Virus record (IMG/VR): IMGVR_UViG_3300032214_000273
Coordinates: 1-22,836 of that record
Direction: 5' to 3' (one strand)
DNA from: a virus
Length of the DNA stretch: 22,836 nt
The translations under genes were made by a program, and so were the position numbers. The notes under the pieces were generated by a model. The model was not told where the DNA came from. It worked only from the letters and a program-made list of their open reading frames with translations, and searched no databases. Position 1 is the stretch's first letter, and each line of letters starts with the position of its first letter. Shown in pieces: positions 7,149 through 13,905 of this stretch.

Positions 7149-7604
7149 ATGAAGGGTATATTGGATTTCGTAAAGGTATCTAACAATATCGACTCTCTAG
7201 AAAAACTAGAGATCGAAAAGGGTAAAGTCCAGATCATGATCATGAAGATGGCAGCGATTACGCTGGGATCTATCATGCTTTCAGTTGTGATCATGATGTT
7301 GATCGGATTGTTTATGCCAAACGCAATGATCGATAACAATGAGATCTTCAAGATTATTGGTCCAGCATTCTCGATGATTGTTGGTGCCTTCGTTGGTGCC
7401 TTTGCTACCATGATGAATATGAAAGTTTCTGAGTTCGATCCTAATGTCAAGGTCCAAGAAATGGGCAAGACTGACTATAAACATATCGCCGAAGCGCATA
7501 CTGAACATGCCAAAGCAGAGTCGATCGAAGCAGACACTGAAATTAAACTGATGGCAGCGGTCGACAAGTATAAAGACAGCGACGACGACTTCGGTCCATT
7601 CTAA
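7149..7604 (+). CDS. Two-helix membrane protein, holin candidate
   Basis: A 151-residue protein with two predicted membrane segments, residues about 34-57 and 67-90, the second containing KIIGPAFSMIVGAFVGAF. A long charged hydrophilic tail ends DSDDDFGPF. It sits 10 bases upstream of the endolysin, the usual place for a holin or other lysis protein, but it is longer than typical two-helix holins because of the roughly 60-residue tail. The short N-terminal region is amphipathic. Membrane topology is read from hydropathy by eye; the holin role is inferred from position only. Bases 7191-7214 can fold as a short hairpin. Confidence 0.6.
   Translation: MKGILDFVKVSNNIDSLEKLEIEKGKVQIMIMKMAAITLGSIMLSVVIMMLIGLFMPNAMIDNNEIFKIIGPAFSMIVGAFVGAFATMMNMKVSEFDPNVKVQEMGKTDYKHIAEAHTEHAKAESIEADTEIKLMAAVDKYKDSDDDFGPF
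7191..7214 (+). repeat. Hairpin inside the two-helix membrane protein gene
   Basis: TCTCTAG (7194-7200) pairs with CTAGAGA (7206-7212) around AAAAA. With C7193 bulged, GA (7191-7192) can also pair with TC (7213-7214). The arm begins about 42 bases after the start codon. Confidence 0.45.
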
Positions 7605-7614
7605 GGAGTAGATA

Positions 7615-8796
7615 ATGACACAACTAACTGAACATTTTACTCTCGCAGAAATGATTGTATCGCCAACCGCAAAGCGTCTTGGCATTCCTAACACACCAAC
7701 TCCTGCACACATTGAGAACATGCGCTACTGCTGCGAAAAGATTCTCGAACCTGTTCGTGCCAAGTTTGGTCCAGTAACAATCAACTCTTCGTATCGTGCA
7801 CCACTTGTCAATAAGGCAGTTGGTGGTTCGGCAACTTCCCAGCACGTTAATGGTCAAGCGATTGACTTTGAAGTAAAGGGTGTTGACAATAAGAAGGTTG
7901 CTGACTGGGTTGCGGACAATCTAGAGTTTGACCAAGTCATCCTAGAATTCTATGCTGCTGGGGACAAGAACTCTGGTTGGGTTCACGCATCTATTAAGAA
8001 AGAAGGCGGAAACCGCAAGCAGCGTCTGATTGCTACTAAATCTAAGGCAGGTGGCACAAAGTATACTCCAGTCAAGGACTTCGATCCAAGCACAACTAAG
8101 GAAGCAGGTGCACCTGTTCTAGAAACAGTTGCTAAAGTTGCTAAAGCAGCGCCAAAGGCAGCACCTCCTGCTGTAACTGGACTTGGTCCAATGGCATCAC
8201 TTCAAGCGAAGTGTGGTGTCGGTGCTGATGGTAAGTGGGGTCCAGGAACTTTCAAGGCAGCAAAAGATTACTTCAAGTTGTCGACTGCACAAGCAGCGCA
8301 CTTCTTCGGACAGTGCGCTCACGAGTCAGGTGGATTTAAGGTATTCTCTGAGAATCTAAACTACTCAGACAAGGGTCTGAATGGTATCTTCAAGAAGTAT
8401 TTCCCAACACTCGCATCGACTGCTGGATATGCTCGCAAACCAGAAAAGATTGCCAACAAGGTCTATGCTAATCGTATGGGCAATGGTCCAGAATCTTCAG
8501 GCGATGGATATAAGTTCCGTGGTCGTGGTCCGATCCAGTTGACTGGTAAGGATAACTATACTGCATTCGCCAAGGACATTAAGCGTCCTGATGTTCTGAC
8601 AAATCCAGACATCGTAGCAACTGAACTAGCATTCGAATCAGCACTTTGGTTCTTCAACAAGAACGGTCTGTTCGCAATTGCTGATAAGGGTGTCACTGAT
8701 GCAGTTATCGGTCAAATTACTCGTCGTGTAAACGGTGGGACGCATGGTCTAGATGACCGCATTAAGAAAACAAAACAATACGCAGCATGGGGATAA
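7615..8796 (+). CDS. Bifunctional endolysin: M15 peptidase plus GH19 muramidase/chitinase-type domain
   Basis: This 393-residue endolysin has two catalytic domains. Residues 1-145 match peptidase family M15_3: zinc site His77 and Asp84 in SQHVNGQAID and His124 in GWVHAS; such enzymes cut peptidoglycan peptide links. After an Ala/Pro/Lys linker (172-187) comes a short LQ...GVGADGKWGPGT segment (195-212) like a peptidoglycan-binding repeat, then a GH19 glycoside hydrolase domain with general acid Glu237 in AHESGGF, second Glu246 in SENLNYS, and GRGPIQLTGKDNY. A good SD (AAGGAG) fixes the start. No signal peptide is visible, so export would need a holin. It lies between a membrane protein and two small genes in a probable lysis cassette. 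Confidence 0.92.
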   Translation: MTQLTEHFTLAEMIVSPTAKRLGIPNTPTPAHIENMRYCCEKILEPVRAKFGPVTINSSYRAPLVNKAVGGSATSQHVNGQAIDFEVKGVDNKKVADWVADNLEFDQVILEFYAAGDKNSGWVHASIKKEGGNRKQRLIATKSKAGGTKYTPVKDFDPSTTKEAGAPVLETVAKVAKAAPKAAPPAVTGLGPMASLQAKCGVGADGKWGPGTFKAAKDYFKLSTAQAAHFFGQCAHESGGFKVFSENLNYSDKGLNGIFKKYFPTLASTAGYARKPEKIANKVYANRMGNGPESSGDGYKFRGRGPIQLTGKDNYTAFAKDIKRPDVLTNPDIVATELAFESALWFFNKNGLFAIADKGVTDAVIGQITRRVNGGTHGLDDRIKKTKQYAAWG

Positions 8797-8800
8797 GAAT

Positions 8801-8971
8801 ATGCTAACTCAAATTAAAGACGCACTAAAGAAACTCTTCGGATTTGTTGATGCTAACAAGGACGGCAAGGTCGATCTCGCTGAGATTACTGCAGCAGTCG
8901 ACAAGGCAGAAGCAAAGGTTGAAGAAGTCAAGGCAGTTGTAAAAAAAGCACGTAAACCAAAGGCGAAGTAA
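8801..8971 (+). CDS. 56-residue EF-hand peptide
   Basis: The start at 8801 follows GGGGATAAG and is preferred over an upstream ATG (8753) inside the endolysin gene. The peptide has an amphipathic N-terminal helix (LTQIKDALKKLFGFV), then a canonical 12-residue EF-hand loop, residues 17-28 (DANKDGKVDLAE): D17, N19, D21, D25 and E28 at the calcium positions, Gly22 at position 6 and Val24 at position 8. An acidic/basic helix and a Lys-rich tail follow. A single EF-hand would have to dimerise or work alone. It sits between the endolysin and a tail-anchored coiled-coil gene, ending one base before that gene. A calcium-responsive lysis or envelope role is speculative. Confidence 0.78.
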   Translation: MLTQIKDALKKLFGFVDANKDGKVDLAEITAAVDKAEAKVEEVKAVVKKARKPKAK

Positions 8972-9439
8972 TTGGAATCTTTGGAAACAAAAGTCGCGGT
9001 AATTGAACACGATCTGAAGCAAATTCAGGTCGTGTTCAGTCGCCTCGATCTCGCCATCGAAAAGATTGGTGATGTTTCCAACTGCATCAATAAGATGCTC
9101 GCTGTGCATGAAACTAAACTCGACGCACAAGAAACAGTCAACGAAGACATTTATGAGAGTTTAGAAGTGCACAGACAAGAAACCAAGGCAAGTAACGCCG
9201 AGTTACATTCGCGTATCACAACAACGACTCGTGAACTTGAAGCAAAGATTCAGTCAACTGAAGACAAGATGCTTGCTGCTATCAGAGACCTCAAGGGTTC
9301 TGTTGATAAAGAAGAAGAAAAAAATAAAAATCGTATTGACAAATTGGAAAAAACCAAGTATCTTATGATAGGTGGTGGTATTGTCATCGGTGCTATCATC
9401 ACCAAGATACTTCCATTGCTTATGAAATTTATCCAATAA
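8972..9439 (+). CDS. Coiled-coil protein with C-terminal membrane anchor
   Basis: A 155-residue protein from a TTG start immediately after the previous stop (TAA then TTG); no better ATG start exists nearby. The first 125 residues are heptad-rich helices (MESLETKVAVIEHDLKQIQV onward) and residues about 130-152 form one membrane helix (YLMIGGGIVIGAIITKIL). I recall similar coiled-coil plus tail-anchor proteins near lysis genes in T4-like phages. It could be a holin-like, antiholin-like or spanin-like part, but there is no signal or lipobox to support a spanin. The 5' part of the gene contains a 17-bp hairpin. The sequence ends just before the early promoter of the primase. Confidence 0.7.
   Translation: MESLETKVAVIEHDLKQIQVVFSRLDLAIEKIGDVSNCINKMLAVHETKLDAQETVNEDIYESLEVHRQETKASNAELHSRITTTTRELEAKIQSTEDKMLAAIRDLKGSVDKEEEKNKNRIDKLEKTKYLMIGGGIVIGAIITKILPLLMKFIQ
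9002..9040 (+). repeat. 17-bp intragenic hairpin with 5-base loop
   Basis: Bases 9002-9018 pair with 9024-9040 around GCAAA. All pairs are Watson-Crick except two G-T wobbles (9013-9029 and 9003-9039). The core GAACACGA pairs with TCGTGTTC. It lies in codons 11-23 of the coiled-coil gene, starting 30 bases after its start codon, with no T-run after it. Confidence 0.8.
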
Positions 9440-9443
9440 AAGC

Positions 9444-9472
9444 TTTACTTTTCCCTCGTTTCGAGGTATAAC
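9444..9472 (+). promoter_or_regulatory. Sigma70-like early promoter for primase
   Basis: TTTACT (9444-9449), a 17-base spacer, then TATAAC (9467-9472). Transcription would begin about 9478-9480, at the primase ATG (9479). It marks the switch from the virion/lysis block to the replication and metabolism block. Confidence 0.6.
9454..9466 (+). repeat. Small dyad in the promoter spacer
   Basis: CCTCG, TTT, CGAGG: a 5-bp perfect inverted repeat between -35 and -10. In RNA reading through from upstream it would pair GAGG (9463-9466), the only SD-like sequence before the primase ATG, 12 bases away. In DNA it could be an operator. Confidence 0.45.
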
Positions 9473-9478
9473 TATATT

Positions 9479-10513
9479 ATGAGTTTATATATTGACATCA
9501 AGTATCTGAACGCGATCGCGCATCGCCTCGAGAACTTCAAGAAAAAATCACAGGATCTATTCAACTGCAGATGTCCCCTCTGTGGTGATTCACAGCGTAA
9601 TAAGAAACGAGCACGTGGGTATTTCTATCGTGGTAAGCAGGATCTGTATTACAAGTGTCACAAATGTGGCGCTAGTCATCACTTCGGAACCTTCCTGAAG
9701 AACTTTGATCCCAACCAATACAGTCAGTATGTCGTTGAACGTTATGCTGATGGTGGACATGGTCGTGCCAATGCACATAAGAATGTCGAACAAGTTCTTA
9801 AGTTTGAAGAACCAAAGTTTACAAAGAAACCTGAACCAAAACTAATCGACTCGATTATGGATCGTCTCGATACACTACCAGATGATAATGAGGCAGTCCA
9901 ATATGCTATTAACCGCAAAATTCCTCGCGATGCTTTTGATCGGTTGTATTTCATACCTAATGTTAAAGATGTCATACAACTTAATGACAAATACAAAGAA
10001 TCGATTATTACATCGGAACCGAGACTCGCGATTCCTTTTTTTGATGGCACTGGCAAACTACTTGTTGTTAGCCTTCGCGGAATCAGAGGCGAGTCACTTC
10101 GTTATATTAACATTAAGGTAGATGAAGATGCGCCCTCGATTTTTGGATTGGATAAGGTCGACCCTACGCAAGAAGTATTCGTCGTCGAAGGGCCTCTTGA
10201 CTCCCTTTTTCTGCATAATTCTATTGCTTGTGCTGGAACCTCTTTCGGAAAGATTGATCAACTCCCAATCGCAAAAGATAAAATAACAATTATTTTTGAC
10301 AACCAACCTAAGAACAGAGACGTGGGTAAGTTGATGAATAAGTATATTGATCAGGGATATAGAATTGTCATCTGGCCAGATGTTCCAGGAAAAGATATTA
10401 ATGAGATGGTTGAAAATGGAATGACAACAGATGAAATTCAGGATATTATAAATCATAATAAATTCATTGGACTAGCAGCAAAGGCAAAGTATGCCATGTG
10501 GAGGAAGATATGA
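9479..10513 (+). CDS. 61: DNA primase, T4 gp61 type
   Basis: This 344-residue protein has nearly the length of T4 gp61, which makes RNA primers for lagging-strand synthesis with the gp41 helicase. The N-terminal zinc ribbon uses Cys32, Cys35, Cys60 and Cys63 (CPLCGDS and CHKCG), followed by HFGTFLKNFDPNQY, parallel to T4's PIGIYLKEFEPDLY. TOPRIM residues are Glu237 and Asp241 in VVEGPLDSLF, Asp274 in IIFDNQP, and the GKDINEM motif (304-310). The beginning YIDIKYLNAIAHRL aligns with the T4 start, supporting ATG 9479. Its end overlaps the next start by four bases (ATGA). It begins the early block behind its own promoter. The helicase gene is not in this window. Confidence 0.93.
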   Translation: MSLYIDIKYLNAIAHRLENFKKKSQDLFNCRCPLCGDSQRNKKRARGYFYRGKQDLYYKCHKCGASHHFGTFLKNFDPNQYSQYVVERYADGGHGRANAHKNVEQVLKFEEPKFTKKPEPKLIDSIMDRLDTLPDDNEAVQYAINRKIPRDAFDRLYFIPNVKDVIQLNDKYKESIITSEPRLAIPFFDGTGKLLVVSLRGIRGESLRYINIKVDEDAPSIFGLDKVDPTQEVFVVEGPLDSLFLHNSIACAGTSFGKIDQLPIAKDKITIIFDNQPKNRDVGKLMNKYIDQGYRIVIWPDVPGKDINEMVENGMTTDEIQDIINHNKFIGLAAKAKYAMWRKI

Positions 10514-11321: not shown

Positions 11322-12238
11322 TGCAAGGCACTCTAGATGATTGGATCTCTGTTTCATTTACAGATACCGATATGGTCTGGAATGTAAACATCACAGAAGA
11401 AATGCTGGACGTTGCTTATTCAGCAACACTAGAAGAAAATTGTAAACTTGCAGTAATGAATCTACCATCTTCAGTTGGCAATCGACCTGCTGTATGTCTT
11501 AGTGGTGGTATAGATAGTCAAACTGTTGTAGATACCTTCCTGTATGCAGGAGTTACGCCTGAAGTTGTGATATTTAACTTCCTAGATGATCATAATATAC
11601 ATGATGTCAGTCATGCTATAAAGTTTTGTGAGACTCGAAACATAACTCCACGTTTAATTGACTTGGATGTTATATGGTTTTTAAACAATCAGTTATATGA
11701 TTTTGCCACCAAGTATAAAATCTCAAGTCCACAATTCGCAGTGCATTTATATCTGGCAGGAAAATTGAAAGACCTAGGATATACCTCTGCTATTTTCGGT
11801 GGTAATAACTTAACACAATTCACAGATTTTTCATGGTATACACCTACGAAAGAAGAAACTGACTGGTGTAAATACTCACAAGAAATAAACTTTCCAATTA
11901 TAGGTAGTTTTTGGTTACAGGATTGGAGACTTTCTTTGATGGCAACAATATTTACGCCATATGTTAGTACTACCGATGCAATGCATAGATACGAGTCAAA
12001 GATTCTTAGTTATAAAACTATGGGGTATGATGTAATACCTCAAGAGCAAAAATACAATGGATTTGAAACCATAAAGAAATATTATGAAGAGATGACAGGC
12101 GATGGGTGGACTTTCGAAAAACAATTTCGCAAACCAATTAGAAATTTTGCTGGATTTTACACAAATAATCCTATAACTGTCGCTCCTGAGATTTCAACAC
12201 GAATAAATATATTGAAACAAAAAATTAAGGAAATCTAA
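11321..12238 (+). CDS. PP-loop (asparagine synthase-like) ATPase
   Basis: A 305-residue protein with a clear N-type ATP pyrophosphatase loop, SGGIDS at residues 61-66 in VCLSGGIDSQTVV. A second region, IFGGNNLTQFTDFSWY (about 159-173), and a C-terminal KYNGFETIKKYYEEMTG with FRKPIRNF resemble phage PP-loop proteins I recall. Such enzymes activate a carboxyl, carbonyl or RNA/DNA base by adenylation (asparagine synthetase, QueC, TilS, ThiI families). There is no glutaminase domain, so the nitrogen or sulphur donor is unknown. The gene is visibly A+T-rich relative to the structural genes. It is coupled by TAATG to its neighbours, including the protease downstream. Substrate unknown; asparagine synthesis proper is unlikely without the amidotransferase half. 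Confidence 0.78.
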   Translation: MQGTLDDWISVSFTDTDMVWNVNITEEMLDVAYSATLEENCKLAVMNLPSSVGNRPAVCLSGGIDSQTVVDTFLYAGVTPEVVIFNFLDDHNIHDVSHAIKFCETRNITPRLIDLDVIWFLNNQLYDFATKYKISSPQFAVHLYLAGKLKDLGYTSAIFGGNNLTQFTDFSWYTPTKEETDWCKYSQEINFPIIGSFWLQDWRLSLMATIFTPYVSTTDAMHRYESKILSYKTMGYDVIPQEQKYNGFETIKKYYEEMTGDGWTFEKQFRKPIRNFAGFYTNNPITVAPEISTRINILKQKIKEI

Positions 12239-13905
12239 TGTCGTTTAATGTTCTCTTTGAAACTGCAGAAAAAAGAAACAGTTTCGCCAGTAAAGTTGGG
12301 CGTTCAAGTCAAGATTCAACCAGTATTACTGTTGATGCAAATCTATTCACATACGCAATGCGTTATCCTGGTGCGGAAGTTTCGTATGATGCGTCACCAA
12401 TAACACTCATTGTTCCGACTGCAGATTTATCTAGATGCCCAGAACATACTGTAGTCTCGACTGCAGGATCGTATTCAGTAGTAGAGACTTCCGATCCTAT
12501 TGGATTTTACGATGCTTGCTCTGGTAATATTGATTGCGCAGACACTGAAATAAAACTTCTGTCACAACTTTCAGGATCATCAATCACGACACCGAATGAT
12601 TGGGCAAGGCGCAGAGTCTCTAACCGCTTTAGACCGTTCAAAGAATTCAATACATTTGATATTAATACAACAAATAAACCAGCAGTTTTTGTCATTGACT
12701 CTGGTATTAATCCTCACGCCGAACTTCAAGGTGTTGAGATTGTAAACTTTGGTAAGTTATCCTATAGTTCTTACGCAGATAATCAAGGTCACGGAACTGC
12801 AGTTGCTTCTTGTATCGCTGGTAAAAAGGTAGGTATTACGCAAAACGTCACACTCTATAACTATAAAGTATTCGACAATGATACAAAACCTACGATTCTT
12901 CAGTTAGGTGGTGTTCTGGATGAGATCAAACAATTTAAACAAAATAATCCATCTAAAAACGTAACAATCAATGCTAGTTGGGCGACTCCATACAGTCCTT
13001 TCTTGAGAAACAAGTTCCTTGGTGCAATTTCGGTAGGTTGCATTGTTGTCTGTTCTGCTGGTAATGGAGCAGATGATGTCTCTAATTATACTCCAGCGGG
13101 TATGCCTGAAGTTATTACTGTTGGTGCTATTGATGATGATGATATTGTCGCAGGATTTACTGCTACTGCAGCAGCAGATGCATCTGCAACTTCACCGTAT
13201 GGACAAACCCTCGACATCTTTGCGCCAGGAGTTGATGTAGATGTTGCTTCGATAAGTGGTTCTTATGCGAGAGTAAGTGGTACTTCTTTCGCTGCACCAT
13301 ATGTTACTGCTGCAGCAGCATTGATGCAATCAATTTCTACATCTCCGCCAACTCATGCTGAAGTTTTAAATCTTTTATCTTTAATCTCAGTTAAGGGTTC
13401 TATTCTGTTTAACAGAGAAAACTTTACCAGTAATCAAAATAAGATTGTTCAAATTATCAACGGTGATTTTTCAGGGGACAACAAATATTATCTTGGAACA
13501 TTGAGTAGTTCTACTCCTAAGATTGTAATGGATACTGGTTCTTTAGGATTCAGTCATGTTACTACTGTTGTTGGTGATAATATCACATATACTGTGCAAT
13601 GGTTGGATACTACACAAAAACAAAAGTATGAAAGTTTTGTTCAACTGGACCCAGAATCAGGTGGATTTCTCGTCAATATTCCTACTGTATTACCTGAAGA
13701 TGAGTTCGAAAAAATTGAGTTGATTATTTCCAAGATTACGAATTACTCAACAGAAGTATCCACTGTTTTCTTCTATATTACTGATGCAGAAGAAATTACT
13801 GGAAATATTCTGGAAGATTTAGATTCTACTCCCCATGCGGACGTAAGTGTCGGCACTGCAGATATGGCCAACTATTTATACAGTGGTAACATCGGTAAAC
13901 CATAA
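12238..13905 (+). CDS. Subtilisin-like (S8) serine protease
   Basis: A 555-residue protein with an intact S8 triad: Asp154 (FVIDSGINPHAEL), His185 (NQGHGTAVASCIAGK) and Ser350 (VSGTSFAAPYVTAAAALM), with Asn276 (SAGNGAD) at the oxyanion position. Residues 1-120 are an unrecognised N-terminal domain, perhaps a pro-region or virion module. About 155 residues after the protease core (400-555) are beta-rich and end with an acidic TADMANYLYSG segment. No signal peptide is seen. The SD AAGGAAA precedes the TAATG-coupled start. In phages, S8 domains occur in virion proteins or act on phage or host proteins; here the gene lies among early-type genes next to PP-loop and GNAT enzymes, so the target is unknown. 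Confidence 0.85.
   Translation: MSFNVLFETAEKRNSFASKVGRSSQDSTSITVDANLFTYAMRYPGAEVSYDASPITLIVPTADLSRCPEHTVVSTAGSYSVVETSDPIGFYDACSGNIDCADTEIKLLSQLSGSSITTPNDWARRRVSNRFRPFKEFNTFDINTTNKPAVFVIDSGINPHAELQGVEIVNFGKLSYSSYADNQGHGTAVASCIAGKKVGITQNVTLYNYKVFDNDTKPTILQLGGVLDEIKQFKQNNPSKNVTINASWATPYSPFLRNKFLGAISVGCIVVCSAGNGADDVSNYTPAGMPEVITVGAIDDDDIVAGFTATAAADASATSPYGQTLDIFAPGVDVDVASISGSYARVSGTSFAAPYVTAAAALMQSISTSPPTHAEVLNLLSLISVKGSILFNRENFTSNQNKIVQIINGDFSGDNKYYLGTLSSSTPKIVMDTGSLGFSHVTTVVGDNITYTVQWLDTTQKQKYESFVQLDPESGGFLVNIPTVLPEDEFEKIELIISKITNYSTEVSTVFFYITDAEEITGNILEDLDSTPHADVSVGTADMANYLYSGNIGKP

Follow-up and report, generated by a model that had tools for sequence, protein, structure and literature searches.

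A single EF-hand peptide in a lysis gene block of a T4-like water phage: a possible membrane-associated, calcium-binding accessory

The stretch of DNA analysed here (the window) is a virus record of 22,836 bases, and the source of the 56-residue protein described below is a T4-like water phage. The genes surrounding this protein form a lysis block, a tight row of endolysin, EF-hand peptide, DUF7201 and primase genes (Table 1), in agreement with the lysis setting proposed in a preliminary description of the locus. That description had also placed the peptide between the endolysin and a tail-anchored protein. Indeed, the stop codon of the M15 and GH19 endolysin gene (8794-8796) is followed by 4 nt and then by the ATG of the peptide gene at 8801, while the stop codon of the peptide gene (8969-8971) is immediately followed, at 8972, by the TTG with which the DUF7201 gene starts. 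The DUF7201 protein shows a weak match to phrog_937, annotated as hemolysin, a label that we take to be of the XhlA type. No confident family was found for the two-TM protein (7149-7604). The phrog_451 profile matches the DUF7201 protein and the primase alike (window 8972-10513), which hints at a DUF7201-primase fusion in some phages. A 555-aa protein encoded at 12238-13905 displays, by eye, the subtilisin-like motifs DSGIN, GHGT and GTSFAAP.

Table 1. Features of the lysis gene block in the window, and Rz-like genes in related records
Feature	Coordinates	Strand	Evidence
Two-TM protein, likened to holins solely on position and topology	7149..7604	+	Two hydrophobic segments
Endolysin, M15 peptidase and GH19 domains	7615..8796	+	Peptidase_M15_3 E=4e-19, Glyco_hydro_19 E=8e-11
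EF-hand peptide gene	8801..8971	+	56 aa; start and loop kept in relatives
N-terminal (E) helix, strongly amphipathic and cationic; may serve as membrane anchor	8804..8848	+	Codons 2-16
Canonical 12-residue EF loop, DANKDGKVDLAE	8849..8884	+	Codons 17-28; ligand codons unchanged in orthologues
Lys/Arg-rich tail VVKKARKPKAK	8936..8968	+	Codons 46-56
DUF7201 coiled-coil protein, C-terminal TM	8972..9439	+	DUF7201 E=7e-15; C-terminal hydrophobic segment
DNA primase (T4 gp61-like), end of conserved block	9479..10513	+	phrog_47 E=2e-75
Rz-like i-spanin and embedded Rz1-like lipoprotein frame, record G001	100129-100638, 100322-100609 (L274:129-638, 322-609)		
Rz-like i-spanin, embedded lipoprotein frame, contig L209	-1672 to -1160 before DUF7201		

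Translation of 8801-8971 on the forward strand yields a product of exactly 56 aa (MLTQIKDALKKLFGFVDANKDGKVDLAEITAAVDKAEAKVEEVKAVVKKARKPKAK), and the single canonical EF hand that had been described was confirmed. Residues 17-28 read D17-A-N19-K-D21-G-K-V-D25-L-A-E28, a 12-residue loop with ligands at positions 1, 3, 5, 9 and 12 and glycine at position 6. Canonical EF hands have a helix residue like F13, four positions before the loop start, here D17. The Pfam profile EF-hand_5 scored the window peptide (P0001) at 23.2 bits (E=4.3e-5), 2.7 bits below the curated cut-off of 25.9, which is exceeded by the relatives P0002 (27.2) and P0003 (30.9). The loop was never produced in 200,000 shuffles of the peptide. 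Six-frame translation of the fetched loci, many of which were chosen through their match to the peptide, gave 6,652 distinct ORFs between 40 and 134 aa; 42 of them carried the loop, against 0.2 expected after shuffling. The list of rows from this comparison was limited to plus-strand ORFs below 135 aa outside loci L130-L134. A chance motif is ruled out by the shuffling together with the conservation of the ligand codons. The frame extends upstream and would give 72 aa if begun at 8753; a wrong start or frame was rejected, since the ATG at 8801 is kept in relatives and the longer frame merely overlaps the end of the endolysin gene. A C-terminal domain of the endolysin is ruled out by the separate reading frames.

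The amphipathic helix reported beside the loop was likewise recovered, with a hydrophobic moment of 0.64 over codons 2-16 that was reached by 0.28% of 1417 15-mers from window ORFs. The whole peptide has a net charge of +5. Its final 20 residues are also net +5 (+4 to +8 in 9 relatives), and Lys/Arg-rich tails recur among the relatives. An AlphaFold model places helices at residues 2-19 and 26-50 on either side of the loop; with a mean pLDDT of 57, which is low confidence, the model is consistent with an EF hand. The window peptide contains a single loop, with no second, paired EF hand in the same chain, and a hydropathy scan of it found no TM segment, of which a holin would have one or more.

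Sequence comparison indicates that the peptide is one canonical EF hand under strong purifying selection. Across 19 distinct orthologues (peptides fitting a start pattern, three rows having a small insertion near codon 45), the five ligand codons displayed zero non-synonymous differences amid heavy synonymous change, the lowest non-synonymous change within the peptide, and dN/dS was about 0.08 over codons 1-48 by a simple count of our own. Conservation of the loop in relatives was the point on which the preliminary description had staked its proposal, and the ligand codons came through without amino-acid change. In a wider set of members, D17, N19, D21 and G22 are invariant in 25/25 aligned sequences, down to 30% identity; S or K can replace the residue at position 25, and D or L that at position 28. 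The weakest aligned member, L153, has lost the ligand at loop position 12. Several members have Asp at this position, a substitution that can favour magnesium in EF loops.

A scan of 2.9 million virus contigs revealed 35 loci matching the peptide. The loop was found in 34 of them, the remaining one (L032) being cut by the contig end, and all seven long phage records contain exactly one copy of the gene. Tblastn searches of 50,697 phage records gave no match for P0001 or the diverged member P0008, and for P0010 just a weak local match to a Lactobacillus tail protein. PHROGs gave nothing convincing for P0001, and three weak matches, in Sphingomonas and Phenylobacterium, came from the scan of bacterial and archaeal genomes. 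To call such a phage gene unusual, as had been done, is too strong, since small proteins with EF loops are found repeatedly among aquatic phages.

The expected position beside endolysins was borne out in part. Among the best 80 endolysin matches listed, the EF gene lies directly 3' of the endolysin gene in 28; it is absent in 46 with at least 300 bases downstream, and 6 are too short. A strict partnership with the endolysin is thereby ruled out. In 43 of the 46 loci lacking the EF gene, the next ORF of at least 60 aa is on the opposite strand, so the endolysin is located elsewhere in those genomes. Among the best 80 DUF7201 matches listed, an EF ORF lies at most 3 kb upstream of DUF7201 in 21, 51 with at least 1 kb upstream have no such ORF (41 of these hold at least 3 kb), and 8 are too short; only strict loops were scored for the endolysin and DUF7201 loci, so that L153 is counted among the loci without. 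Eighteen of the 21 are the closest ones listed (L135-L152), with the EF gene directly upstream of DUF7201 in 17 and, in L149, at -2.4 kb behind two inserted genes. On contig L209, the order is Rz-like gene (with embedded lipoprotein frame), 71-aa ORF, EF gene, two-TM gene, 79-aa hydrophobic ORF and DUF7201; here DUF7201 follows the EF gene at a distance of 0.9 kb, and about 230 bases separate the EF gene from the preceding Rz-like gene. The endolysin of L209 is elsewhere on the same contig, at the EF-less endolysin locus L074. This EF gene without an adjoining endolysin, together with the locus counts, links the gene more closely with the block that ends in the primase than with the endolysin. 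In L125, the EF gene is found between Rz-like, holin-like and DUF7201 genes. A 188-aa ORF in L074 (6208-6774, minus strand), Hsp20-like by eye, is convergent with the endolysin gene of this EF-less lineage.

The same slot is filled differently in other relatives. In L151, the endolysin is followed by a protein with a TM helix, an EF loop and a basic tail, and then by DUF7201; the TM helix stands in place of the amphipathic N-helix, which suggests membrane attachment of the peptide. The slot protein of L153 consists of an amphipathic helix, a degenerate loop and a basic tail, and those of L154 and L155 have a membrane-type N-terminus and a basic tail with the loop absent. Calcium binding is thus not essential to the protein at this slot. 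As read from these sequences, its theme is a membrane-type or amphipathic start plus a basic tail, the EF loop being a frequent yet dispensable insert. In L035 and L128, the protein encoded upstream of the primase gene has an amphipathic N-terminus, bears one or two loops and ends in a basic tail. In the same region of related marine Kyanoviridae (e.g. Melnitz), a TM coiled-coil gene and a lipoprotein gene look, by eye, like a spanin pair. Distant relatives in L033, L036, L122, L124 and L126, proteins with TM or lysine-rich parts, have the loop in common with the peptide, as well as a tail that is basic or charged; by eye, their neighbours are tail, SOD-like, Dps-like or metabolic genes and not recognisable lysis genes. 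The L126 protein (L126:5938-6288) combines a TM helix and an EF loop with a C-terminal part that is similar to one segment of the prohead protease inhibitors of phages (phrog_8608, 1.7e-5), and against the phage records it was matched solely in this C-terminal part.

The peptide shares the 12-residue loop ligands of the EF-hand superfamily (calmodulin, troponin, SCaMC, cyanobacterial Asr1131), and its helix-loop-helix, predicted at low confidence, is consistent with theirs. With a profile built from eight members, E<=0.01 was reached by 46 distinct PDB sequences, among which SCaMC-1, a calcium-binding mitochondrial carrier, scored best (4.6e-8); Asr1131 scored 0.0039. Unlike these proteins, the peptide is a single hand within 56 aa, with a basic tail, no partner hand and a place in a phage lysis block. 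Diverged members (P0007, P0008, P0025 and P0026) lie above the Dockerin_1 cut-off, whereas in the window peptide an EF-type helix precedes the one loop; P0001 had no Dockerin_1 match up to E=1 and does not have two duplicated F-hand loops. A dockerin-like loop (DANKNGKVDGHD) occurs in a 152-aa probable structural protein of G001 (67855-68313; L272). Acinetobacter phage phiAC-1 is said, in the available part of a report, to carry an EF-hand protein (PMC5795418). Its EF-type loop (DSNGNGIIEKGE; L268 28618-29121) lies within a gene annotated as lysozyme-like, and as this was the sole loop match among the phiAC-1 ORFs, it is not a relative of the peptide. The EF-hand of MetSV was set aside as a host gene, not a viral one, going by the portion of the source available (PMC9694453).

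We tentatively regard the peptide as an accessory to the lysis gene block that binds calcium and associates with the membrane, a role that is quite possible on the present sequence comparisons while falling somewhat short of an even chance. Calcium may in this way help time the escape of these viruses from their hosts, and the peptide perhaps responds to calcium entry at holin opening. The N-helix would lie on the inner face of the cytoplasmic membrane, because a TM helix takes its place at the L151 slot. A calcium gradient across the inner membrane is well established, and at sub-micromolar cytosolic calcium the EF loop would be empty. Once the holin opens, outside calcium would enter and the loop would fill. 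The calcium-bound peptide, perhaps a dimer completing an EF pair, could then bind differently to the membrane or to a partner, e.g. the DUF7201 protein or the endolysin, and so help commit the cell to lysis. The distant look-alikes outside lysis genes and the loop-less slot proteins count against this reading, as do the endolysin and DUF7201 loci without the EF gene, the members with Asp at loop position 12, and the positions of the two-TM genes of HTVC008M and Melnitz given below.

Since a primase lies within the block, a role in replication is possible, and we consider it rather unlikely that the peptide is a membrane-bound nucleic-acid or replication factor, with a tail that binds DNA or RNA, an EF hand that is a structural calcium or magnesium site, and the primase rather than the endolysin as partner. 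In the closest members DUF7201 and the primase gene come after the EF gene, which keeps company with this block more consistently than with the endolysin, the two proteins of the block share their match to phrog_451, and the Lys/Arg-rich tails recur. However, spanin-like and holin-like genes occur in the same region of relatives, and in other phages a different family of EF-loop proteins has endolysins as neighbours. To a similar degree we doubt that the peptide is a passive part, a calcium-stabilised small protein that senses nothing and serves as a chaperone-like partner, an antiholin-like regulator or a virion component. Weak binding is common for single EF hands, the slot proteins of L153-L155 have a degenerate loop or none, and EF-like loops are found in the probable structural protein of G001 and the lysozyme-like protein of phiAC-1. 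Against such a part stand the ligand codons, lowest in non-synonymous change within the peptide, and the recurrence of EF loops in membrane proteins next to endolysins.

Still less likely is a disruptin-like peptide that breaks the outer membrane instead of spanins, with an EF hand that would either remove divalent cations from LPS or gate the activity. The window peptide is indeed short, cationic (56 aa, net +5) and strongly amphipathic in its N-helix, it adjoins an endolysin, and the archetype from phiKT is, as far as the available part of the source goes, a short amphipathic antimicrobial peptide (PMC12819732). However, a protein matching the Rz-like spanin family phrog_8821 at 4e-7 was present in 8/10 long records searched, a count that includes the record of the query itself (G001), and was not found in the distant G007 (88 kb) and the 55.5-kb G009. 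To our knowledge, known disruptins have no such EF hand. In G001 and L209 a lipoprotein frame is embedded within the Rz-like gene, and in G001 about 8-9 kb separate the EF gene from the Rz-like gene and a small holin-like gene, both upstream of it. Most of these phages thus do not lack spanins, and in those records the peptide adds to the usual set and is not simply a spanin substitute; the long records do not point to spanin replacement, the window itself being a fragment too short to tell. The idea of a pure substitute is weakened accordingly.

The timing of phage lysis is usually put down to the build-up of holin and to membrane potential. If EF-hand proteins of lysis cassettes sense calcium, lysis would be set or sharpened by the level of external calcium, in which lakes, estuaries and the sea differ. 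No separate EF-hand protein in a phage lysis cassette was described in the literature searched, partial texts for the most part outside subscription journals, which is weak evidence of absence. Reported calcium sites lie inside endolysins, e.g. the calcium-dependent CHAP endolysin LysGH15, described as 'EF-hand-like' (PMC4022735); it resembles the peptide in having a calcium loop linked to lysis, but there the loop is inside the enzyme and here it is on a separate peptide.

A second EF-loop family was observed on small phage proteins with two TM segments. It includes the 111-aa proteins of L184 and L202, with two hydrophobic segments after the loop in L184. In common with the peptide, these are small phage proteins bearing an EF loop, and the roseophage copies lie in lysis cassettes; they differ in having two TM segments and a loop near the N-terminus, and no likeness was seen beyond the loop. 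The loop is present in 48/48 IMG/VR loci (24 distinct sequences). An endolysin-like gene was found at most 1.3 kb downstream in 42/42 loci with at least 1 kb downstream, 41 of which also have a holin- or spanin-like gene, as judged with reference holin, spanin and endolysin proteins taken partly from the tested loci themselves. Among these references, the CRP-810 holin has strong family support, and several others have weak support. Reference P0034 matches GTA_holin_3TM at 2.5e-20 and the spanin-like reference of L221 matches phrog_1804 at 1.6e-4; Peptidase_M15_4 in L221 (0.0016) and GH19 in L232 (0.047) are both below cut-off, and the holin-like reference of L232 matches only an unknown family. 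The two-TM protein could be a holin or antiholin.

With at least two EF-loop families showing no visible likeness outside the loop, calcium entry might be a lysis commitment signal in many aquatic phages, a generalisation from sequence that we regard as improbable at present. Here, a membrane-skimming peptide in T4-like phages and a two-TM protein in roseophages would both read the calcium rush after holin opening, and both would then fire or synchronise the next step of lysis. The loop is present in all five isolates with the two-TM gene. Among the roseophages, annotations place it beside a lysozyme gene in CRP-207, spanin and endolysin genes in CRP-345, and holin and GH108 genes in CRP-810. 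In HTVC008M it lies between a baseplate-hub gene and the tape-measure gene, and in Melnitz between a baseplate-hub gene and a hypothetical gene. Loci L220-L267 and L215-L219 are mostly beside endolysin-like genes in roseophage-like contigs, and in the isolates the protein is annotated as hypothetical.
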